Shown here in pieces: positions 6,868 through 21,298 of a stretch of DNA of 21,298 bases. The DNA lies in the IMG/VR virus record IMGVR_UViG_3300025138_000454, positions 1 through 21,298 of that record, one strand, 5' to 3'. The translations under genes were made by a program, and so were the position numbers. The DNA comes from a virus. The notes beneath the pieces were generated by a model that was not told the DNA's origin, ran no database searches, and saw nothing but the letters and a program-made list of their open reading frames with translations. Position 1 is the first letter of the stretch. Each line of letters opens with the position of its first letter.

Positions 6868-6896
6868 TTTTCTTTTGGATTCTTTGCAGGCATAGT
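6868..6896 (+). promoter_or_regulatory. Rightward promoter of transcription unit 1
   Basis: The -10 is CATAGT (6891-6896), within CAGGCATAGT, a ten-base word shared exactly with the leftward promoter. A weak -35, TTTTCT (6868-6873), lies 17 bases upstream. Ten bases after the -10 comes the TGAGAAAGGA ribosome-binding site (6907-6916) of the first rightward gene. The poor -35 suggests an activator or an upstream AT-rich element helps. Confidence 0.5.
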
Positions 6897-6922
6897 TAGG
6901 GCTCACTGAGAAAGGACACTTT

Positions 6923-12146: not shown

Positions 12147-12218
12147 ACATTGAGAGAAAAATTATTATGGTCAAAATTGAATTTTATTGTTGCCTTCTCC
12201 TGCAACATCAGCGATACT
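12147..12218 (+). promoter_or_regulatory. Promoter module A of unit 2 with inverted repeat
   Basis: The -35 TTGCCT (12190-12195) and -10 GATACT (12213-12218) are 17 bases apart. An inverted repeat, TGTTGC and GCAACA (12188-12193, 12202-12207), overlaps the -35 and looks like an operator. An AT-rich upstream part contains TCAAAATTGAA. The whole 72-base block aligns without gaps to 20834-20905. TTGGAAACATTG sits further upstream at 12141-12152. Confidence 0.65.
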
Positions 12219-12230
12219 ACGATTGTCAAC

Positions 12231-12240
12231 TGAGAAAGGA
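12231..12240 (+). promoter_or_regulatory. Stereotyped ribosome-binding site TGAGAAAGGA
   Basis: This site lies six bases before ATG 12247 and decides that start over a TTG at 12187, which falls inside the promoter. Confidence 0.75.
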
Positions 12241-12246
12241 AATGAC

Positions 12247-12900
12247 ATGAACAACCCAACCTTCGCCCTGAACATCAAGAGCCTCGTCGTCAAAGCTTAC
12301 GTTAGCAGCAAAGTTGCACAGTCGCAAGGCAACGGCGCGATCCTCTTCACCTCTGCTGAAGAGCTGCTGGCTGACCGCAACATCACAGGCAAGATCCTTG
12401 TGGACGCTTTCAACGAAGTCTCCCCTAAGCCTGTCAAGAAATTCGCTGACAACAAGACTGCTGCTCGTCGTTACATGGCTGCGATTGCTGATCTGCACGT
12501 CGACACTGGCAGAACACTAGTCATCAAAGGCACCAAAGTAACCTCCAAGCCAACCCCACAGGTTGCTGCACTCCCAGGAATGACACCACTCGGTCTCCCT
12601 GCAGACAAGTCAGCGCCAGCCATCAAAGGTGCTCTCTCCGAGATTGTCGTCACAACCACTGACATCACCCCACCAATGCCAACCAAGGCTCGTGGTGCAT
12701 TCGCTGGCAAGACAATCCGCGTGATTGAGCTTGACAATCCTCGCAAGGAAGGCACTCGTGCCCACAAGACATATAGCCTTTACGTCTCTGGTGGCAGCTA
12801 CGAAGATCTGGTTGCCAACGCTGCTGGCTGGAGCACCAAAGGTGGCGTCAGAGAAGATGTTGCCCATGACATTAAAAAAGGACGCATCGAGCTGATATGA
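12247..12900 (+). CDS. DUF3489-like protein with two small DNA-binding-like modules
   Basis: A 217-residue protein, first gene of unit 2. The N-terminal 80 residues (LFTSAEELLADRN, then KPVKKFADNKTAARRYMAAI) resemble by recall the N-terminal part of alphaproteobacterial DUF3489 proteins. A Pro/Ala/Thr-rich linker follows (about 95-145). The C-terminal part (DNPRKEGTRAHKTYSLYVSGG, ending AHDIKKGRIELI) resembles small phage proteins with a helix-turn-helix-like fold. Codons are visibly biased to C-ending ones compared with neighbours, which suggests high expression. A regulatory or DNA-binding role is inference. Its stop overlaps the next ATG as ATGA. Confidence 0.7.
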   Translation: MNNPTFALNIKSLVVKAYVSSKVAQSQGNGAILFTSAEELLADRNITGKILVDAFNEVSPKPVKKFADNKTAARRYMAAIADLHVDTGRTLVIKGTKVTSKPTPQVAALPGMTPLGLPADKSAPAIKGALSEIVVTTTDITPPMPTKARGAFAGKTIRVIELDNPRKEGTRAHKTYSLYVSGGSYEDLVANAAGWSTKGGVREDVAHDIKKGRIELI

Positions 12901-13070
12901 CCTGCAAAGATTGCTATAAGCCAAAACTCAGCGAGCAAGAAATTCTTATCTTGCTCGCTTCGCTTAATGCCTGTATATTTCCGATTGAACAATCCGTGCC
13001 ACAGGCAATAACAACCCATGCAGCGGCGAAGAGAGCCGAACGCAAACTGAGAAAAATGTTGGAGGAATAA
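12897..13070 (+). CDS. Mini-protein with CxxC, 57 residues
   Basis: A 57-residue frame starting MTCKDCYKPKLSEQEILILL. Its ATG overlaps the preceding stop (ATGA) and its TAA overlaps the next ATG (TAATG), so it exactly fills the space between two real genes. It has one CxxC near the N-terminus, a hydrophobic helix (EILILLASLNACIF) and a basic C-terminal helix (AAKRAERKLRKMLEE). Its function is unknown. A 57-residue product with a single CxxC could bind metal as a dimer or be a thiol partner of the flavoprotein next door, both speculative. Confidence 0.55.
   Translation: MTCKDCYKPKLSEQEILILLASLNACIFPIEQSVPQAITTHAAAKRAERKLRKMLEE
12930..12959 (+). promoter_or_regulatory. 11-base stem-loop inside the mini-protein gene
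   Basis: AGCGAGCAAGA (12930-12940) and its exact reverse complement (12949-12959) enclose eight bases. This is a strong hairpin inside a coding sequence at a unit's second gene. It is followed by no T-run. It could slow ribosomes, tune the ratio of upstream to downstream products, or bind a regulator. Confidence 0.5.
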
Positions 13071-14008
13071 TGGTAGCTATTTATGGAGCAGGTCTGGCAG
13101 GTTTGCTGGCAGCTAATATGTTGAGGGGGATGAGCCCAACTGTGTTTGAGGCCCAAGGCTCCCTGCCCAACAACCATGGTGCACTGTTGCGCTTCCGCAG
13201 CGACAAGGCTGGCACAGCTTGCGGCATCCCTTTCAAGAAGGTGCATGTGACCAAGGCAATCAAGTACGATGGCAAGATCACCACTGAGCCAAACCTGTTC
13301 CTGAGCAACATGTATTCCCAAAAGGTCACAGGCTCAATCATGAGCCGATCCATCAACAACCTCTCCGCAGCATCACGCTACATTGCCCCATGGCACCTGA
13401 TCAGAGACATGTCCATGGGCGCAGAAATATCTTACAACATGAGCTTGTCCGAATACTCAATCGCCAACACTTCCGGACCAATCATCTCGACCATACCAAT
13501 GCCAGTGTTGATGAAGATCGTCGGTTGGGACGAGATCCCAGACTTTCCCAAGCAAAAAATATACACCATCCGCGCAACCATTGACCAGCCTGATTGTGAT
13601 ATATACCAGACCATTTATTACCCAGACCCGACTGTCCCACACTACAGAGTTTCAGTTATTGGAAATGTTGTGATCTGTGAGGCTGCTATGCCAATAGACT
13701 CAAAACCAGCACCCCACATTATGAGCATCCTGATGGATGACTTCGGGTTCAGGCCTAGGAAGATAACCAACATCACCTCATCGACTCAAGAGTACGGCAA
13801 GATCCGCCCGATCGATGAGCGTCTGCGGAAAGAATTCATTTTCCAAATGACCACCCAACACAACATCTATTCAGTTGGCAGGTTCGCAACATGGCGACAG
13901 ATCTTGCTGGACGATGTGGTCGACGACATCAAAGTTGTCGAAGAATTCATTCGGGGGAAGTCTGACTACGCCCGATGGATGCACTCTCAGAAAGGAGAAA
14001 ATCAATGA
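13070..14008 (+). CDS. FAD/NAD(P)-binding Rossmann oxidoreductase-like protein
   Basis: A 312-residue protein with a clear dinucleotide-binding start. The strand VAIYGAG runs into GAGLAG (6-11) and ends at the acidic residue Glu27 (VFEAQ) that binds the ribose of FAD or NAD. A second flavin-type signature is likely at YSVGRFATWRQILLDD (267-282). The middle is beta-rich and probably forms the substrate domain. The exact reaction is unknown. The overall plan recalls flavin-dependent amine oxidases, UDP-galactopyranose mutase or protoporphyrinogen oxidase. GGAGG precedes the ATG at short spacing. Its stop overlaps the ThyX start (ATGA), so the two proteins are made together and may work on the same nucleotide pathway. 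Confidence 0.75.
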   Translation: MVAIYGAGLAGLLAANMLRGMSPTVFEAQGSLPNNHGALLRFRSDKAGTACGIPFKKVHVTKAIKYDGKITTEPNLFLSNMYSQKVTGSIMSRSINNLSAASRYIAPWHLIRDMSMGAEISYNMSLSEYSIANTSGPIISTIPMPVLMKIVGWDEIPDFPKQKIYTIRATIDQPDCDIYQTIYYPDPTVPHYRVSVIGNVVICEAAMPIDSKPAPHIMSILMDDFGFRPRKITNITSSTQEYGKIRPIDERLRKEFIFQMTTQHNIYSVGRFATWRQILLDDVVDDIKVVEEFIRGKSDYARWMHSQKGENQ

Positions 14009-14652
14009 AAGTGGAACTCGTAAATTATACCTCTGACGCTGTGGACCTGTTGTTGTTCACCAAGAACACAAGGCTTATGGACGATGAGGACGCCTATAGC
14101 AAAATTGCCGACTGGTCTGAAACAAAGAAGCAGGAGGAGCTGGACTACATGCTCCAGACAATCCGCTCGTCTTGGGAATTCATTGACTACACATTCAACA
14201 TACGTGACGTCAGCCGTGGGTTCACCCATCAGTTCGTTCGGACACGCCAAGCCTCATACGCCCAACAATCTCAGCGCACAGTTGACATGTTTGGCTTCAG
14301 CTATTACGTTCCAGAGCGCATTGAACAACATGCAGAGGCTCTGGAAGAATATGACAAAGCAATGACTGATATTGCCGACGCATATCAAAAGCTCCGTAAG
14401 TTTGTTCCCGCAGAAGATGCACGTGGCATCCTGCCAACCAACATCCACACAAACATTGTCGCCAAGTTTAACTTGCGCACATTGAGTGAGATGGCCAAGT
14501 CACGCCTCAGCCCAAGAGCTCAAGGTGAATATCAACAAGTTTTCAAGCTAATGGTTGAAGCTGTTGTTGCGGTGCATCCGTGGGCAGAACCTTTCTTGAC
14601 CCCCACTCAGTGGGCAGCACCATCAATGGGAAAGGCTCTGAATAAGCCATGA
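14005..14652 (+). CDS. thyX: Flavin-dependent thymidylate synthase, divergent
   Basis: A 215-residue ThyX-like enzyme, which makes dTMP from dUMP using folate, FAD and NADPH. The signature region reads RTRQASYAQQSQR (79-91), matching the ThyX motif RHRxxSxxxxSxR with His80 changed to Thr. Ser84, Ser89 and Arg91 are kept. The His of the usual FEHxxFTF motif is also absent (WEFIDYTF, 57-64). The C-terminal half, ARGILPTNIHTNI and RAQGEYQ, matches the family. AAAGGAG lies seven bases before ATG 14005, which decides this start over one ten codons upstream. The changed residues leave open whether the product is dTMP or a modified dUMP. Confidence 0.88.
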   Translation: MKVELVNYTSDAVDLLLFTKNTRLMDDEDAYSKIADWSETKKQEELDYMLQTIRSSWEFIDYTFNIRDVSRGFTHQFVRTRQASYAQQSQRTVDMFGFSYYVPERIEQHAEALEEYDKAMTDIADAYQKLRKFVPAEDARGILPTNIHTNIVAKFNLRTLSEMAKSRLSPRAQGEYQQVFKLMVEAVVAVHPWAEPFLTPTQWAAPSMGKALNKP

Positions 14653-14924
14653 GCAATAGATATGAAGATGACTTGATAATTGCTGTTCGGGAAGCCAAAA
14701 AGCACATGACTGTCAGAGAGCTTGTTGAGAAGTATAACCTCAAACGCCACCAAGTAACCTACATTCTTTATCACGAGTCTTGCAAGCTGACTGACGACAA
14801 ACCCATGCCAGTCGACTATGTTGTTGAGGATGCTGCTTTCGAAGATCCAGAAGACTTCGAAAAAGACGAGCTATCAATAGTCAATGGCTTCAAGAAAACA
14901 TTTAAAGGATTGTTCGAGAAATGA
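14649..14924 (+). CDS. Small putative helix-turn-helix protein, 91 residues
   Basis: A 91-residue protein starting at an ATGA overlap with the thyX stop. Residues 20-42 (MTVRELVEKYNLKRHQVTYI) have the spacing of a helix-turn-helix, with the VRELVEKYNL/KRHQVTYIL pair as the two helices. The second half is acidic and ends in a basic amphipathic helix (VNGFKKTFKGLFEK). It is the last gene of unit 2. It could be a regulator of the palindromic promoter that begins just behind it, but this is untested. No family is recognised with certainty. Confidence 0.65.
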   Translation: MSNRYEDDLIIAVREAKKHMTVRELVEKYNLKRHQVTYILYHESCKLTDDKPMPVDYVVEDAAFEDPEDFEKDELSIVNGFKKTFKGLFEK

Positions 14925-14927
14925 TGA

Positions 14928-14956
14928 TTTACTTCCCCGCACAGGGGAAGTATAAT
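14928..14956 (+). promoter_or_regulatory. Promoter of unit 3 with perfect palindrome in the spacer
   Basis: -35 TTTACT (14928-14933), exactly 17 bases, then consensus -10 TATAAT (14951-14956). The spacer holds a perfect eight-base inverted repeat, ACTTCCCC and GGGGAAGT (14931-14938, 14944-14951), around a five-base loop. The repeat touches both hexamers, an ideal site for a repressor. Ribosome-binding site TGAGAAAGGA follows after eight bases. Confidence 0.7.
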
Positions 14957-14964
14957 AACCGTGC

Positions 14965-14974
14965 TGAGAAAGGA
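14965..14974 (+). promoter_or_regulatory. Stereotyped ribosome-binding site TGAGAAAGGA
   Basis: This site lies six bases before ATG 14981. It decides that start over the in-frame ATG at 14921, whose first codons would read through the promoter. Confidence 0.75.
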
Positions 14975-14980
14975 AATGGC

Positions 14981-15469
14981 ATGAATATCTTTTATTTAGA
15001 TCACAGTCCTGTTAGGGCTGCTCAGATGCACTGCGACAAACATTGCGTCAAGATGATCCTCGAGACTGCCCAGCTTTTGTCCACAGCTCACAGAGAGCTT
15101 GATGGCAACTATTGGGCTGACAAGTTTGGCTTGTATAAGTCAACTCATAAGAACCACCCATCAGCTGTTTGGGTGCGGGAGAGCTCTGCCCACTACTGGT
15201 GGACTTGCGGATTGTATGTTCAGCTTGGCTTGGAATACACCAAGCGATACGGCAAGACTCACAAGTCAATGGGTCTGGCTCCATTCTTGTCTATATCTCC
15301 AATGTGGATCAATCGTTTGATATGGCGCGAACCACCTCAGTGCATGCCTGATGAATACAAGTCAGACTGCACTGTTGAGGCATACCGGAAGTATTACAAT
15401 GGTGCCAAGGCAAGGTTTGCAACTTGGAAAAACAAGGAGGCTCCAGAATGGTTCGGGACGGTGCAGTGA
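14981..15469 (+). CDS. Conserved phage protein, 162 residues, unknown
   Basis: First gene of unit 3. The 162-residue protein begins MNIFYLDHSPVRAAQMHCDK and contains HCVKMILETAQLLSTAHREL (16-35) and HPSAVWVRES, patterns I recall from many marine and cyanophage proteins of unknown function. The C-terminus, AYRKYYNGAKARFATWK, vaguely recalls the YYGKA end of T4 endonuclease V, so a DNA glycosylase-like role is a weak possibility. Conserved His, Cys and Trp residues suggest an enzyme. The last 22 bases overlap the next gene. Confidence 0.75.
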   Translation: MNIFYLDHSPVRAAQMHCDKHCVKMILETAQLLSTAHRELDGNYWADKFGLYKSTHKNHPSAVWVRESSAHYWWTCGLYVQLGLEYTKRYGKTHKSMGLAPFLSISPMWINRLIWREPPQCMPDEYKSDCTVEAYRKYYNGAKARFATWKNKEAPEWFGTVQ

Positions 15470-15882
15470 TTGTAGACATTGACGGCACTTTAGCTGATTG
15501 CCGTCACAGATTCCATTTGTATGAGTCAGGAGATTATGACGCATTCAATGCAGCCAGCAAGGATGACGAGCCGATTGATGCTGTTGCTGAGTTGGTGCGC
15601 AATCTGCCTAAGTGGACTTGGATTGTGATCATGACTGCTCGGGATGAATCATTTAGGAATGTGACCATGAGTTGGCTCAACATGAATGATATCCCATTCG
15701 ACCACCTGTTGATGAGACCAGCAGGTGACAAGCGCAGAGACGACATTGTGAAGCGTGAATTGTTCAATGTCAACTACAAAAAAGAACAAGTCTGGTTTGC
15801 TCTGGAAGACCGCAAAGTCTGCGTTGATATGTGGAGGGATGAAGGCATAACTTGCCTGCAGGTTCAGGAGGGAAATTTCTGA
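15448..15882 (+). CDS. Pnkp-type polynucleotide 3'-phosphatase (HAD family)
   Basis: A 144-residue HAD-family phosphatase that resembles the C-terminal 3'-phosphatase domain of T4 polynucleotide kinase. It removes 3'-phosphates from nucleic acid ends. HAD motif I is VDIDGTLAD with Asp10 and Asp12. Motif II is MTAR with Thr63. The Lys of motif III lies in DDIVKREL (Lys102). Motif IV is EDRKVCVDMWR with Asp121. The ending TCLQVQEGNF matches the T4 protein's ending style. The kinase domain is absent. Start ATG 15448 has AAGGAGG seven bases upstream and overlaps the previous gene by 22 bases. Repair of DNA or RNA ends is the likely job. Another HAD substrate, such as a nucleotide, is possible. 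Confidence 0.85.
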   Translation: MVRDGAVIVDIDGTLADCRHRFHLYESGDYDAFNAASKDDEPIDAVAELVRNLPKWTWIVIMTARDESFRNVTMSWLNMNDIPFDHLLMRPAGDKRRDDIVKRELFNVNYKKEQVWFALEDRKVCVDMWRDEGITCLQVQEGNF

Positions 15883-16061
15883 TGGAGCTCAGACTGGTTG
15901 GCAACGACATTGAATTCGACAGAGAGAAAGTAGCAAGGCTTTTTGACCTGAGTCCTGCCCTGCGGATGTCACTGGAGGAGGCTTTCAAAAAGTCCAACGA
16001 GCACGACGAATCCGTCGATGCAGCATATCAAGAAGGGAGAGCCGAAGGTGAGCAGTCCTAA
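15882..16061 (+). CDS. Small unknown protein, 59 residues
   Basis: A 59-residue protein starting MELRLVGNDIEFDREKV. AGGAGGG lies nine bases upstream and its ATG overlaps the preceding TGA by one base. It is acidic and mostly helical, with a possible DNA-binding-like ARLFDLSPALRMSLEEAF segment. No family is recognised. The end overlaps the next gene. Confidence 0.6.
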   Translation: MELRLVGNDIEFDREKVARLFDLSPALRMSLEEAFKKSNEHDESVDAAYQEGRAEGEQS

Positions 16062-16344
16062 AGACCCAGCAGACATCCTGCAAGAGATGGCAGAGACATT
16101 CCGAGAGCGCAACAAAGTCTACGGCGACAACTACAAGGCTGTCGGAGAAGTGATGATCAGCTTGTTCCCCAATGGGGTGCAGCTCAACACAGTCAGCGAT
16201 TACAACAGCTGGCACCTGTTTGAGTTGATGATCGTCAAGATCACTAGGTTCGCAAACAGCAATCTGAAACACAAAGACTCAATTCATGATGCAGCCGTTT
16301 ATGCGGCCATGGTTGAATATCTCATCAAGGAGGAGAAAAAGTGA
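16048..16344 (+). CDS. DUF6378-like small phage protein
   Basis: A 98-residue protein, starting at GTG 16048 with GGGAG eight bases upstream. The frame remains open to an ATG at 16018, but that has no ribosome-binding site. The helical pattern, FRERNKVYGDNY near residue 18 and later KITRFANSNLKHKDSIHDAAVYAAM, matches by recall the DUF6378 family of small helical phage and bacterial proteins. Its function is unknown. Conserved Lys, Arg, Tyr, His and Asp residues suggest a nucleotide-related role. Its stop overlaps the next GTG start. Confidence 0.65.
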   Translation: MSSPKDPADILQEMAETFRERNKVYGDNYKAVGEVMISLFPNGVQLNTVSDYNSWHLFELMIVKITRFANSNLKHKDSIHDAAVYAAMVEYLIKEEKK

Positions 16345-17018
16345 GCAACATTTTAATCACAGGCACAGGCAAAGGCTTGGGCAAGGCAATGAAAGAAAAG
16401 CTGGTAAGCCAAGGCCACAAAGTGATCAGCTTCAATCTTGAGGACGGCAGGGATGTCCGTAGTCCAGACATTTCTGACGTCTGGCGTCAAAAAATTGACG
16501 TGTTGATAAACAATGCTGGCGTCAACATAATCGACTGGCTGGAAAACTTCGAGGAATCAGACTGGGACAAAGTCATGGACACCAACGCCAAAGGCATCTA
16601 CATGATGACCAAGGCTTGCTTGCCAGGACTGATCAAAAGCAAAGGCACAGTTGTCAACATCGTCAGCAATGCAGCCCACATGCCCATGACTTGTTCGTTG
16701 GCCTACAATGCGTCCAAAGGTGCGGCTCACATCATGACTTTGCAGCTGGCCAGAGAGCTGACCAAGAAGCATGGCATAACAGTTTTCGGGATAGCCCCTA
16801 ACAAACTCTCCGGCACTGGCATGAGTGATGACATCGACAACCAAGTGGTTGCCACTCGTGGCTGGACCAAAGAGCATGCCCAGCAGTATCAACTCAATGG
16901 CCTTTTGGCAGGGGAAGAAACTCCACCAGAAAGACTGGCTGAATTCTTGGCCTATCTCTTGCAAGACAAAGACCACCACAAGTACCTGACTGGGTGCATC
17001 CTTCCATATGGAGCCTGA
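16341..17018 (+). CDS. Short-chain dehydrogenase/reductase (SDR)
   Basis: A 225-residue classical SDR using NAD(P)H. It has the nucleotide-binding TGTGKGLG (7-14), NNAG (57-60), Asn83 in TNAKG and the catalytic triad Ser109, Tyr122, Lys126 with the canonical 12-residue and 3-residue gaps (YNASK). Length is slightly under the usual 250. Translation starts at GTG 16341, overlapping the previous TGA, with AGGAGG seven bases upstream. The substrate is unknown. SDRs in phages may modify sugars, nucleotides or cofactors. Its place in a replication operon hints at nucleotide or cofactor chemistry, an inference only. Confidence 0.9.
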   Translation: MSNILITGTGKGLGKAMKEKLVSQGHKVISFNLEDGRDVRSPDISDVWRQKIDVLINNAGVNIIDWLENFEESDWDKVMDTNAKGIYMMTKACLPGLIKSKGTVVNIVSNAAHMPMTCSLAYNASKGAAHIMTLQLARELTKKHGITVFGIAPNKLSGTGMSDDIDNQVVATRGWTKEHAQQYQLNGLLAGEETPPERLAEFLAYLLQDKDHHKYLTGCILPYGA

Positions 17019-17019
17019 T

Positions 17020-17499
17020 ATGAAATTCCAAATTGAACAAATAGCAATCGTCCCGAAAGATCCCATCGCAGCAAAGAAGCTGCTGTCAGAGATTGGGGCA
17101 ACCGAATGGTCTGAAGATCACGTTGTCGCAACTGGCAATGTTTTCGGTGTTCGCGACACCAACGAAGCTGACTTGTCTTTCAACTATGACCTGTTCTCTG
17201 GGAAAGAATTCGAGGTTCTGGATTATACCTCTGGCCCTAATTGGGTTGACTCGAGAGGAGAAAGAAACACAGTCAGCCACCTAGGGATGCATTGCAGTGC
17301 AGAAGATCTTTTGCATTGGCGAGCATTCTTCGCGAACCGTGATATCGAAGTGGCGCAAGAAGTTTTCACCGACTCCCACACCAATCCCGTCATCGCAGGA
17401 AAACGCTCTTACAATTACGTCATATTCGACACGAAGAACATATTGGGCGTTGACCTGAAATTCATCGTTAGGATAAATAAAGATGCTAATAGTATTTGA
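17020..17499 (+). CDS. VOC (glyoxalase/dioxygenase fold) protein
   Basis: A 159-residue protein with two beta-alpha-beta-beta-beta repeats of the VOC superfamily. The starts of the repeats read QIEQIAIVPKD and SHLGMHCSAEDL. The metal-ligand positions appear to be Gln7, Glu65 and His87. The fourth, in GVDLKFI, reads Lys where Glu is usual, so the metal site may be incomplete. I judge this alignment by eye. ATG 17020 is chosen over ATG 17008 because GGAG lies six bases before it. The first base after the SDR stop is followed at once by this ATG. Its last 17 bases overlap dnaQ. Substrate unknown. Confidence 0.75.
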   Translation: MKFQIEQIAIVPKDPIAAKKLLSEIGATEWSEDHVVATGNVFGVRDTNEADLSFNYDLFSGKEFEVLDYTSGPNWVDSRGERNTVSHLGMHCSAEDLLHWRAFFANRDIEVAQEVFTDSHTNPVIAGKRSYNYVIFDTKNILGVDLKFIVRINKDANSI

Positions 17500-18019
17500 C
17501 CTAGAAACAACAGGTCTGCCAAAGGCTGAAGGTTCTGATCTTGACATGCAGCCCAAGATCATTGAATTCGGTGCGATCAAGCTTACTGAAGAGCTCATTG
17601 AGGTTGATCGCCTTGAATTCTTTTGCAACCCCAAGCACCTGCTCGACCCAAAGATCACCAAGATCACAGGCATAACCGACGACATGCTCAAAGACGAAAA
17701 GCCATTCATCGCACACCTCGACAGATTGAATGAATTCTTTTTGGGAACCAAGCGCATGTTTGCCCACAATCTTGGCTTCGACAGAAAGATCTTGAAATTC
17801 GAGCTTGAACGGCTAGACAAAGTCACCAGCTTCCCTTGGCCTTATGAGCACACCTGCACAGTTGAGGTTGGTCAGAGAGTCTGGGGGAAGATGCGCAAGC
17901 TGGGCGACATATATGAAGAGCTCTTCGAAGAGAAAATAGAAGGTGCTCACAGGTCGATCAACGACGTTGAAGCCACACTCAGAATAATCGAGTGGTACGC
18001 AAAGGAAGGACACATATAA
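17483..18019 (+). CDS. dnaQ: DnaQ-like 3'-5' exonuclease (Pol III epsilon type)
   Basis: A 178-residue DEDDh exonuclease that would proofread for the polymerase encoded next. Exo I is FDLETTG with Asp6 and Glu8. Exo II is AHNLGFD with Asp100. Exo III is HRSINDV with His156 and Asp161, and all five catalytic residues are present. It lacks the C-terminal extension that binds alpha in cellular epsilon (about 243 residues), so contact with the polymerase would need another surface. The stop is followed immediately by the dnaE ATG. It overlaps the VOC gene by 17 bases. Confidence 0.92.
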   Translation: MLIVFDLETTGLPKAEGSDLDMQPKIIEFGAIKLTEELIEVDRLEFFCNPKHLLDPKITKITGITDDMLKDEKPFIAHLDRLNEFFLGTKRMFAHNLGFDRKILKFELERLDKVTSFPWPYEHTCTVEVGQRVWGKMRKLGDIYEELFEEKIEGAHRSINDVEATLRIIEWYAKEGHI

Positions 18020-20833
18020 ATGTTGAACCTCAAGACACGCACAGAGTATTCGTTCCGCAAGGCATACGGCCCCATACAAAAGGTTGTTGAGTGTTTTGAA
18101 GGCAAGGCTGTTGGGATATGCGACACAGGAACATGGGGCCACGTCGCATTCTCCAAGCACTGCAAAAAGGCTGGCATCAAGCCTGTTTTTGGTGCCGAGA
18201 TATCTGTCGTCCTAGATGCCACAGACCGTTCCAAACAAGCCGACAACCCGATGGGATTTCTTGCTTGCAACAATGATGGGTTGGCTGAGATATATGAGCT
18301 TGTTTCCCGCAGCACATCCAAAGAGAATTTCTACTATTATCCACGCATAAGTTATTCAGACTTGTTCGATGTCAGCGACAATGTGATAATGTTGTCTGGA
18401 TCGCACCCAGACTGGTCGATGCTTCCTTTGACCAAAAAACACAATCTTTACGTTGAGCTTGGACCAATGAGTTCTCCGAAGTCAGCTGAGTGGGCTGCTA
18501 AAAAAGGATTCAAGACCATAGCCACCAGTGACAACTTTTATCCCAAGCCATCGGACAAGAAGGCTTACGAGGTTCTGTGTGGACGCAATAGGACAGACCG
18601 CAGTGGGCCCATGCACATACTCGACGAATGGGAATGGAAAGCTGCTGTGCCTTGGGGAACGCAAGAAGCAATCGACAACACCTACAAGGTTGCAGAGCTT
18701 TGCAATGCTGACCTGCCAGTTGCACAGATGATCGCATTCCACTCCAAAAAGACTTTGCGGGAGCTTTGTGAAGATGGCGCTCCAGCCTTAGACGTTGATC
18801 TGGAAGATCCAGTTTATGCAGCTAGGCTCAAGCGAGAGTTGGACATGATTGCAAGCAAGGAATTTGAGGATTATTTCTTTGTGATCGCTGACATGATCCG
18901 TTACGCCAAAGAGCACATGTTGGTTGGCCCTGCTCGTGGATCGTCTGCTGGTTCTTTGGTTTGCTATCTCACTGGCATAACTGACGTTGACCCGATTGTG
19001 CACGACCTGTTGTTCGAAAGATTCATCGACATCACCCGAGAAGACCTACCAGACATCGATATTGATTTCCAAGACGATCGCAGAGAGATGGTGTTCCAAT
19101 ATCTCAGGGACAAGTACGGTGCAGAAAAAGTTGCGCACCTCGGAACAGTCAGCCGCTACAAAGCCAAGAGCACAATAGCAGAAGTGGCCAAAGAGCTTGG
19201 CATCCCCGCATGGGAAGTCAACGACCTGAAAGGTGCGATCATCGAGCGTAGTGGTGGTGACTCTCGTGCTGCGTTCTGCATCCTAGACACATTCAACGAC
19301 CTCGACATAGGCAAGGCTGTCTTGGAGAAATTCCCGCAGATGAGAGTTGCGGCAAAGATGGAGAACCACGCACGACACGTTGGTGTGCATGCTGCTGGCA
19401 TTCTGGTGACTGAAGACCCAGTCAGCAAATATTGCTCCGTCAGCGCACAGACTGGTGCGGCCCAAATAGACAAGAAAGACGCTGAAGATCTCAATCTGCT
19501 GAAGATTGATGCATTGGGCCTCAGAACACTTTCCGTATTGCAGGACGTTCTAGATCAGGTTGGTTGGGTGCGAGACCAGCTGATCAAGTTTCCGCTAGAG
19601 GACAAGAAGGCATTCGCAATATTGAATGATGAGAAGTATGCAGGGATATTTCAGTTTGAAGGCTATGCGCTGCAAGGTGTTACCAGACAGATGAAAGTGC
19701 ACAACTTTGAGGACGTTGCAGCCATAACTGCCCTAGCTCGTCCTGGACCACTAAACTCTGGTGGCACAAGTCAATTCATCAAGCGGCACATTGGTGCTGC
19801 CCCAGTTGAATATTTGCACCCAATGACAGAGCCGATCACAAAGGTCACCCATGGCGTAGTCGTTTATCAAGAGCAGGTCATGACCATTGGTCGGGAGGTT
19901 GGGAAGCTGAGTTGGGAAGACGTTTCATTCCTGCGCAAAGCAATGAGCAAGTCTTATGGCAAAGAATACTTCGACACATTCTGGGAGAAGTTTAAGGTTG
20001 GTGCCGCAGAGAATGGCATACCAGAAGATGTGGCGCAAATGATCTGGGACAACATCAACACGATGGGATCTTGGGCGTTCAACCGCAGTCACGCAATATC
20101 TTACGGGATGGTGAGCTATTGGTGTTGCGTCCTGAAGAGCAGGTTCCCGCTGGAGTATGCTGCTGCTTGCCTCCGCAATGTCAAGGATGACGACCAAGCT
20201 GTCAAGCTCTTGAGAGAAGTGGTGTCCGAGGGATTGACTTACAAGCCATTCGACAAATTCAAGTCCAAGGCCAACTGGTCAGTCCAAGACAACGAATTGA
20301 TTGGCGGACTGATCGGGATCAAAGGCATCGGCCCCAAAATGGCAGAGGACATAGAAAATAGGCGCAACCTGTCCCAACCACTAACTCCACGGCAAGAAAC
20401 CCTCCTAAACACAGGCACCACACCCTACGACGATATTTTTGAGTGCGACAGAAAGTTTGGCCACATCAAGCAAGATCCCAAGGCCCACAACATCGGCTCA
20501 GCCATAACAGACATCCAAGACTTAGATGGGGACAATCCAGGAACATTCGTTTTCTTCGGCAAGCTGAAAGACAAGAACCTCAGAGATATGAATGAAGCTG
20601 TCAACTTGGCCAAACGTGGTGGTCGTAGAGTTGATCGCAACAACCTTTGGTTGAATGTAACAGCTGAGGATGACACTGGCGCAATCATCTGCACGGTGGA
20701 CAGGTTCAAGTACCAGAAGATGGGCAAGCCCATTGTGGAGGATGGAAAGCTGGGTGAATGGTATTTATTCAAAGGTGTTTTGAAGAGTGGCTTCAGAAAG
20801 ATCTATCTAGAAAAGATACGTAAGATGTTGTAA
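18020..20833 (+). CDS. dnaE: DNA polymerase III alpha subunit (C-family), short form
   Basis: A 937-residue replicative polymerase, against 1160 in E. coli. Residues 1-240 form an N-terminal PHP domain whose metal ligands are lost. The usual HLHVHSEYS reads NLKTRTEYS and TDHG reads CDTG. The palm has GPARGSSAGSL (303-313), PDIDIDF with Asp347 and Asp349, and the third Asp497 in KIDALGLRT. The fingers include VVVYQEQVM and AFNRSHAISYG (686-696). A helix-hairpin-helix, GIKGIGPKMA (766-775), and an OB-fold (about 841-930) follow. The tau-binding C-terminal domain is absent and no strong clamp-binding motif is seen. Its neighbour dnaQ would supply proofreading. Start ATG directly follows the dnaQ stop. 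Confidence 0.95.
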   Translation: MLNLKTRTEYSFRKAYGPIQKVVECFEGKAVGICDTGTWGHVAFSKHCKKAGIKPVFGAEISVVLDATDRSKQADNPMGFLACNNDGLAEIYELVSRSTSKENFYYYPRISYSDLFDVSDNVIMLSGSHPDWSMLPLTKKHNLYVELGPMSSPKSAEWAAKKGFKTIATSDNFYPKPSDKKAYEVLCGRNRTDRSGPMHILDEWEWKAAVPWGTQEAIDNTYKVAELCNADLPVAQMIAFHSKKTLRELCEDGAPALDVDLEDPVYAARLKRELDMIASKEFEDYFFVIADMIRYAKEHMLVGPARGSSAGSLVCYLTGITDVDPIVHDLLFERFIDITREDLPDIDIDFQDDRREMVFQYLRDKYGAEKVAHLGTVSRYKAKSTIAEVAKELGIPAWEVNDLKGAIIERSGGDSRAAFCILDTFNDLDIGKAVLEKFPQMRVAAKMENHARHVGVHAAGILVTEDPVSKYCSVSAQTGAAQIDKKDAEDLNLLKIDALGLRTLSVLQDVLDQVGWVRDQLIKFPLEDKKAFAILNDEKYAGIFQFEGYALQGVTRQMKVHNFEDVAAITALARPGPLNSGGTSQFIKRHIGAAPVEYLHPMTEPITKVTHGVVVYQEQVMTIGREVGKLSWEDVSFLRKAMSKSYGKEYFDTFWEKFKVGAAENGIPEDVAQMIWDNINTMGSWAFNRSHAISYGMVSYWCCVLKSRFPLEYAAACLRNVKDDDQAVKLLREVVSEGLTYKPFDKFKSKANWSVQDNELIGGLIGIKGIGPKMAEDIENRRNLSQPLTPRQETLLNTGTTPYDDIFECDRKFGHIKQDPKAHNIGSAITDIQDLDGDNPGTFVFFGKLKDKNLRDMNEAVNLAKRGGRRVDRNNLWLNVTAEDDTGAIICTVDRFKYQKMGKPIVEDGKLGEWYLFKGVLKSGFRKIYLEKIRKML

Positions 20834-20905
20834 ATGTTGAGATAAAAACTATTTCACTCAAAATTGAAAATAATGATTGCCTTTTCTGGCAATAACGACG
20901 ATACT
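20834..20905 (+). promoter_or_regulatory. Promoter module B with inverted repeat
   Basis: -35 TTGCCT (20877-20882), 17 bases, -10 GATACT (20900-20905). The inverted repeat ATTGCC and GGCAAT (20876-20881, 20888-20893) overlaps the -35. The 72 bases match 12147-12218 without gaps, about 52 of 72 by hand count. The leader to the ribosome-binding site is about 32 bases, longer than at the other promoters. Confidence 0.65.
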
Positions 20906-20954
20906 CTCTTTATCGGAAGGGAGAGGCCCTGACGGTTTGAGAAAGGAACTAACA

Positions 20955-21298
20955 ATGACACCGAATAAATCAAAGATCAAAGCGCGCATCGAAGAGCTTG
21001 AAGTAATGTTGGCTGACGCCACCCCAGAACAAATTGCAAAATCTAAATCCGACAGTGTTCGCATGGCTGAAATTCTTGATGAATTGAGAGATGCAAAAGC
21101 TAACAAAGATGACGTTTTGTCATATGATGAAATGAATGACGCAATCACTGATACATTGGTTGAAGAATTTAAGACGTTGGATCTTGCCTTGAACAACGCA
21201 TTTCATGAGCTGGAAAACTTTAAAGATACAATGGCTGCTGACCTGATGGTTGTTTCTACGCGCTACGTTGTCATCAACAACAAAGACCTTATCAGCCC
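20955..21298 (+). CDS. Partial gene, unknown acidic helical protein
   Basis: The frame opens at ATG with TGAGAAAGGA (20938-20947) seven bases upstream and continues past the window end, with about 114 residues visible. The protein begins MTPNKSKIKARIEELEVML, is acidic and helical throughout, and probably has a coiled coil in the first 60 residues (EILDELRDAKANKDD). No domain is recognised. It is the first gene of the next rightward unit. Confidence 0.7.
   Translation, partial: MTPNKSKIKARIEELEVMLADATPEQIAKSKSDSVRMAEILDELRDAKANKDDVLSYDEMNDAITDTLVEEFKTLDLALNNAFHELENFKDTMAADLMVVSTRYVVINNKDLIS

Follow-up and report, generated by a model that had tools for sequence, protein, structure and literature searches.

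The viral fragment analysed here carries a gene module, centred on a non-canonical ThyX and a flavoprotein that almost always precedes it, which we read as a pre-replicative modified-thymidine pathway yielding a candidate modified base; we put the probability of this reading at roughly 0.6. It is the best reading because the ThyX-flavoprotein pair is conserved, is tied to residue loss in ThyX, and occurs in two groups of carrier phages whose restriction resistance is unexplained. The gene set, its order and linkage, the residue losses, the predicted flavoprotein fold and the swapping of module parts were all computed. The window, meaning the whole stretch of DNA analysed, is a 21.3-kb linear viral fragment (IMG/VR record IMGVR_UViG_3300025138_000454). 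Judged from their sequences, one end carries terminase- and portal-like genes and the other a replication region encoding primase-, UvrD-, DnaQ- and DnaE-like proteins, and the 10-20 kb region has no DNA-level match among annotated phages.

The genes at 12247-14924 form one unit, bounded by a promoter-like site near 12190-12240 and by position 14924; like every window gene described below, they lie on the + strand. The first (12247..12900) encodes a 217-aa protein of no assigned function and no Pfam match, whose place upstream of the flavoprotein is common to relatives and whose sequence is weakly conserved. Four ORFs follow, at 12897-14924, with ATGA/TAATG overlaps at every junction: a CxxC mini-protein beginning MTCKDC (12897..13070, 57 aa), an FAD-type flavoprotein (13070..14008, 312 aa), the non-canonical ThyX of the Thy1 family (14005..14652, 215 aa), and, as last gene of the unit, a poorly conserved 91-aa protein with weak helix-turn-helix similarity (14649..14924). 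These overlaps bear out the coupling of CxxC protein, flavoprotein and ThyX described in the original prediction. The next gene (14981..15469) belongs to PHROG 624, annotated as a "DNA binding protein", has weak Pyr_excise similarity, and is found in most, not all, relatives; because a second promoter-like site lies at about 14935-14975, we prefer 14981 over 14921 as its start.

The window ThyX has R79-T80-R81 where RHR is expected and WEF where FEH is expected, and it keeps S84, S89 and R91, all as first noted from the sequence. It nevertheless belongs to the family, matching Pfam Thy1 at E=4.7e-40 (137.9 bits, cut-off 24.8) and passing the NCBIfam thyX equivalog TIGR02170 (101.5, cut-off 87.9). 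In canonical ThyX, His53 stacks on folate. Aligned to T. maritima ThyX, whose numbering is used from here on, the window protein shows H53 replaced by I, H59 by F, H79 by T and the lid tyrosine Y91 by T; the PDB chain has 12 extra residues, and the offset was taken from mutant chains, which we take to be H53A (4gtf) and Y91F (8rep). The same pattern is fixed across the 157 distinct ThyX sequences of the module, with I53 in 156, F59 in 155, T, S or N at position 79 in 154, and V, T, A or I at position 91 in all 157. The RHR(x7)S signature is thus broken at its histidine, retained in only 3/157 relatives, while S/T88 is mostly kept; R78, R80, R90, R147, R165 and R174 are invariant, and Q75 nearly so (156/157). 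The tyrosine of the lid, which is Tyr108 in M. tuberculosis and Tyr91 in T. maritima numbering, screens C5 of dUMP and N5 of the flavin, and flavin and dUMP are both contacted by the first arginine of RHR (PMC6514825). The pattern of lost and kept residues, with the dUMP-binding arginines retained, thus preserves the dUMP site and alters the folate/solvent side of the active site. The ThyX of Aeromonas phage Gekk3-15 (L009:7939-8700) has regained or kept RHR, yet has lost His53, His59 and the lid tyrosine, so the central change must lie elsewhere than in the loss of RHR.

Could this simply be a decaying ThyX held in place by linkage? The loss of residues normally thought essential would fit such non-functional drift, but we consider it very improbable, as it is already contradicted by conservation: the invariant arginines, the intact frames, the fixation of a new pattern in 157 diverged sequences and the conserved partner all point to purifying selection. 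Chance residue changes are ruled out by the same fixation.

The partner flavoprotein, which had been described as belonging to no known phage family, is in fact a member of PHROG 4828 (E=5e-69), a family without an assigned function that is present in 359 of 50,697 phage records and in about 290 viral contigs; when 84,980 bacterial and archaeal species were scanned by sequence pattern, no member turned up. A plain bacterial oxidoreductase was considered and set aside, with no relative in that pattern-limited scan and none in 14 control genomes. The AlphaFold2 model (pLDDT 93) finds UDP-galactopyranose mutases as its top PDB folds, at E of about 1e-11 to 2e-11, 12-14% identity, TM about 0.57-0.6 and rmsd 6-9 Å, with renalase and amine oxidases ranking behind. 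Motifs of the form GR-x-A-x-[YW] and xVP-x-x-R also look similar to those of the mutases. In contrast to them, the phage protein has a smaller substrate domain, has no sugar pathway near its gene, and matches no UGM family in Pfam, where it gives only a weak NAD_binding_8 match; against E. coli Glf, hhalign aligns the nucleotide-binding start alone. Going by its modelled fold, the protein is probably a flavoenzyme of the UDP-galactopyranose mutase superfamily and not the same enzyme. In the record of Vibrio phage PVA7 (L002:6113-7004), the flavoprotein and several other genes contain frame breaks, which are probably sequencing errors.

Of 163 non-redundant loci, 158 have ThyX after the flavoprotein on one strand, four are truncated and one lacks ThyX, giving 158 of 159 testable loci. 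The gene trio that the original prediction proposed to seek in other phages recurs as a pair: most relatives lack the CxxC mini-protein, which is confined to some of the close ones and is an optional neighbour rather than an essential member. The module order is flavoprotein, ThyX, HAD phosphatase, DUF6378, optional short-chain dehydrogenase/reductase (SDR) plus VOC, and DnaQ/DnaE, and of 111 loci extending as far as DnaE, 110 contain HAD or DUF6378. The module is carried by, among others, Pbunavirus, Wifcevirus, Carpasinavirus, Myosmarvirus, a family of Rhizobium phages, and podoviruses infecting Cronobacter and Vibrio. In the podoviruses (L001:7710-8390 and L011:7704-8372), ThyX is followed by a gene with a DUF3310 end in place of the HAD; DUF3310 may have a link to gp1.7, the nucleotide kinase of T7. 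Within the module itself, we recognised no kinase dedicated to a modified dNMP, which counts against the modified-thymidine reading.

The main rival to a modified base is a two-component route to plain dTMP, in which the variant ThyX still makes dTMP but, having given up its own reduction or handling of folate, relies on the flavoprotein as electron donor, and the other enzymes tune nucleotide pools. Membership of Thy1, a score above the thyX equivalog cut-off, retention of the dUMP-binding residues and S/T88, and the tie between flavoprotein and ThyX all fit this route, as does the finding that each of 14 carrier records tested has exactly one ThyX and no ThyA (PF00303). It leaves unexplained, however, the restriction resistance, the HAD phosphatase and the swapping of SDR+VOC and DUF6378, and the closest predicted fold of the flavoprotein is a redox-neutral sugar-nucleotide enzyme and not a dedicated NAD(P)H reductase. 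We regard dTMP supply as rather unlikely, at about one chance in five.

Phages with other ThyX types provide a comparison. Ten phages with canonical ThyX (RHR, His/Tyr53, Phe/Tyr91) carry neither PHROG 4828 nor PHROG 8720; those control runs that covered five phages each contained no positive of their own, the same flavoprotein models having matched in other runs. All four actinophages whose ThyX lacks RHR and His53 carry PHROG 8720, a flavoprotein of like general build, and phages of the one host genus Gordonia show the contrast too (JonJames, OneUp and Stormageddon versus GOATification). Like the module, these actinophage sets (clusters D, DV and EF, and the Microbacterium Krampusvirus) combine in each genome a flavoprotein, here of PHROG 8720, with an HAD phosphatase, an SDR and a non-canonical ThyX, joined in Sparcetus by VOC. 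Unlike it, they use another flavoprotein PHROG, keep the lid aromatic in 3/4 cases, and have more scattered genes. Their HAD phosphatase has weak similarity to deoxypyrimidine 5'-nucleotidase and their SDR is FabG-like. We looked for direct sequence relationship of PHROG 8720 to PHROG 4828 and rejected it; because only the nucleotide-binding start aligns, plus one weak match, we call the two related by architecture only. In the actinophage sets (L286:5794-8459, L284:185-2268 and L290:3197-7249) ThyX has RQR or RSR, and oxidoreductase plus thymidylate synthase is the usual annotation.

Downstream of PHROG 624, the window encodes a PNKP-type HAD phosphatase (15448..15882; Pfam HAD_PNKP 1e-31) with the DxD and other HAD residues conserved, which is the predicted nucleotidase of the pathway, and then a DUF6378 protein (16018..16344) with a four-helix fold and invariant K74, R77, D87, S88 and D91. 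DUF6378 matches 360 phage records, with host genera that are nearly those of the 359 flavoprotein records. Its K..R...DS..D motif recalls, on our assumption, a MazG-type pyrophosphatase, an assignment we dropped for want of Pfam or fold agreement. Next come the SDR of PHROG 3142 (16341..17018), which keeps the catalytic N-S-Y-K, and a VOC/glyoxalase-like protein (17020..17499), so named from the annotation of an Aeromonas relative; both are facultative and paired, the loci that extend to DnaE, 111 in all, having both in 48 cases, neither in 59 and a single one in four. Pbunavirus lacks the pair and Wifcevirus has it. A DnaQ-like proofreading exonuclease (17483..18019) and a DnaE-like replicative DNA polymerase (18020..20833) adjoin the module.

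The type of DUF6378 and the presence of SDR+VOC are inherited together and make up a modular sub-cassette next to the genes for the polymerase. On the DUF6378 tree the SDR+VOC trait changes four times, against about 33 with shuffled labels, whereas it changes 22 times on the ThyX tree, 19 on that of the flavoprotein, 18 on HAD, 22 on DnaQ and 14 on DnaE. A modular pathway would be expected to show such tracking. Part of the match is explained by linkage, since DUF6378 and SDR are neighbours and can be transferred jointly, but a functional match is favoured, because HAD and DnaQ, though close by, do not track SDR+VOC. In the window (15448-17499) and over loci L013-L276, gains and losses of the SDR+VOC pair are numerous, and the DUF6378 type matches in nearly every case.

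Published restriction observations were not designed to test the module and cover two carrier groups. Wifcevirus phages resist nearly all restriction systems tried, and the authors of BASEL saw in them none of the known mechanisms of protection. DNA of Pbunavirus JG024 is not cut by ScaI, NdeI or BsaI and is cut by XbaI, a resistance that its authors put down to methylation (PMC10913387); digestion by SacII is also reported. These cuts imply that any thymidine replacement would be partial or small. For JG024 DNA from yeast, removal of RM systems in the hosts was needed to start infection (PMC10913387), a result that is confounded because yeast-made DNA also lacks host methylation. DNA of one PB1-like phage is cut incompletely by EcoRI and HindIII (PMC3634792). 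A literature search found no paper reporting a modified base in carrier phages. The module might instead serve nucleotide pools or host takeover, with a product that acts outside DNA, for example a modified nucleotide inhibiting the host or a defence, and with resistance arising from unrelated anti-restriction genes or methylation. The restriction data for two groups only, the methylation favoured for JG024 and the generic nature of the HAD and SDR proteins leave room for this; the module's location next to the replicative polymerase, seen in loci of podoviruses and myoviruses and on environmental contigs, and the failure to find a known protection mechanism in Wifcevirus, speak against it, and we judge it improbable, more so than dTMP supply.

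The modified-thymidine reading has precedents to which the module can be compared. In phages M6, ViI and PhiW-14, hypermodification by way of 5-hydroxymethyl-dUMP shares with our proposal a C5-modified deoxyuridine (here predicted), restriction resistance and tailoring enzymes, but the module starts from ThyX, and no ThyA-type hydroxymethylase was present in the 14 carriers. In Bacillus phage SP-15, thymine is hypermodified to dihydroxypentyl-uracil. There the divergent ThyX gp130 overlaps an SDR, gp129, of the same PHROG 3142 as the module SDR; because this PHROG is broad, with matches in 14/14 control genomes, the pairing is only a hint. SP-15 differs in that no PHROG 4828 or 8720 flavoprotein was found, and its own ThyX-SDR pathway is putative. 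It is a natural test case for ThyX-based hypermodification. Its two ThyX proteins (L287:5512-6348 and L288:30026-31911) are gp9, nearer canonical, and the very divergent gp130, for which reading residues at the ThyX positions was abandoned owing to a poor alignment.

What would a ThyX do without its folate-side residues? The original prediction of a modified-thymidine gene set stands as our best reading, minus the role it gave to the CxxC protein, and we infer a substrate, a product, an order of steps and a role for each enzyme as follows. The variant ThyX would bind dUMP and add a carbon substituent at C5; lacking the folate-site histidine and the lid, it may leave or accept a substituent other than the finished methyl of dTMP. 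The mutase-like flavoprotein would use flavin chemistry to supply or process this substituent, acting perhaps on the donor or on the product of ThyX, or it may serve as a reductase. Nucleotides might be cleaned up or discriminated by the HAD phosphatase and DUF6378, for example by removing dTMP, and SDR+VOC would tailor the side chain in about half of carrier phages. The neighbouring DnaE/DnaQ would then place the product instead of some thymidine, blocking restriction enzymes. More speculatively, and with the odds against it, the ThyX and flavoenzyme may join C5 of dUMP to a carbon unit that does not come from folate, for instance one derived from a sugar or an aldehyde, as the SP-15 chain might be; this would be a nucleotide C-alkylation new to description, with DUF6378 types and SDR+VOC defining at least two bases in widespread phages, including therapeutic Pbunavirus.

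If the pathway exists, hundreds of sequenced phages, among them therapy-used Pbunavirus and the Wifcevirus phages of E. coli, would hold an unrecognised thymidine modification that starts from ThyX and not ThyA. It would explain the restriction resistance of carriers, give a function to PHROG 4828, PHROG 8720 and DUF6378, and warn against annotating variant ThyX genes as plain thymidylate synthases, and phages in existing collections would allow an immediate test.

The promoter-like sites of the module belong to a promoter-plus-leader block that recurs through the window, at 12190-12246, 14935-14980 and 20880-20955 (+), at 6560-6480 (-) and at 6870-6922 (+). Each consists of a -10-like ATACTA, ATAGTA or TATAAT followed by TGAGAAAGGA directly ahead of the start codon, and these blocks are likely the phage's own operon leaders.
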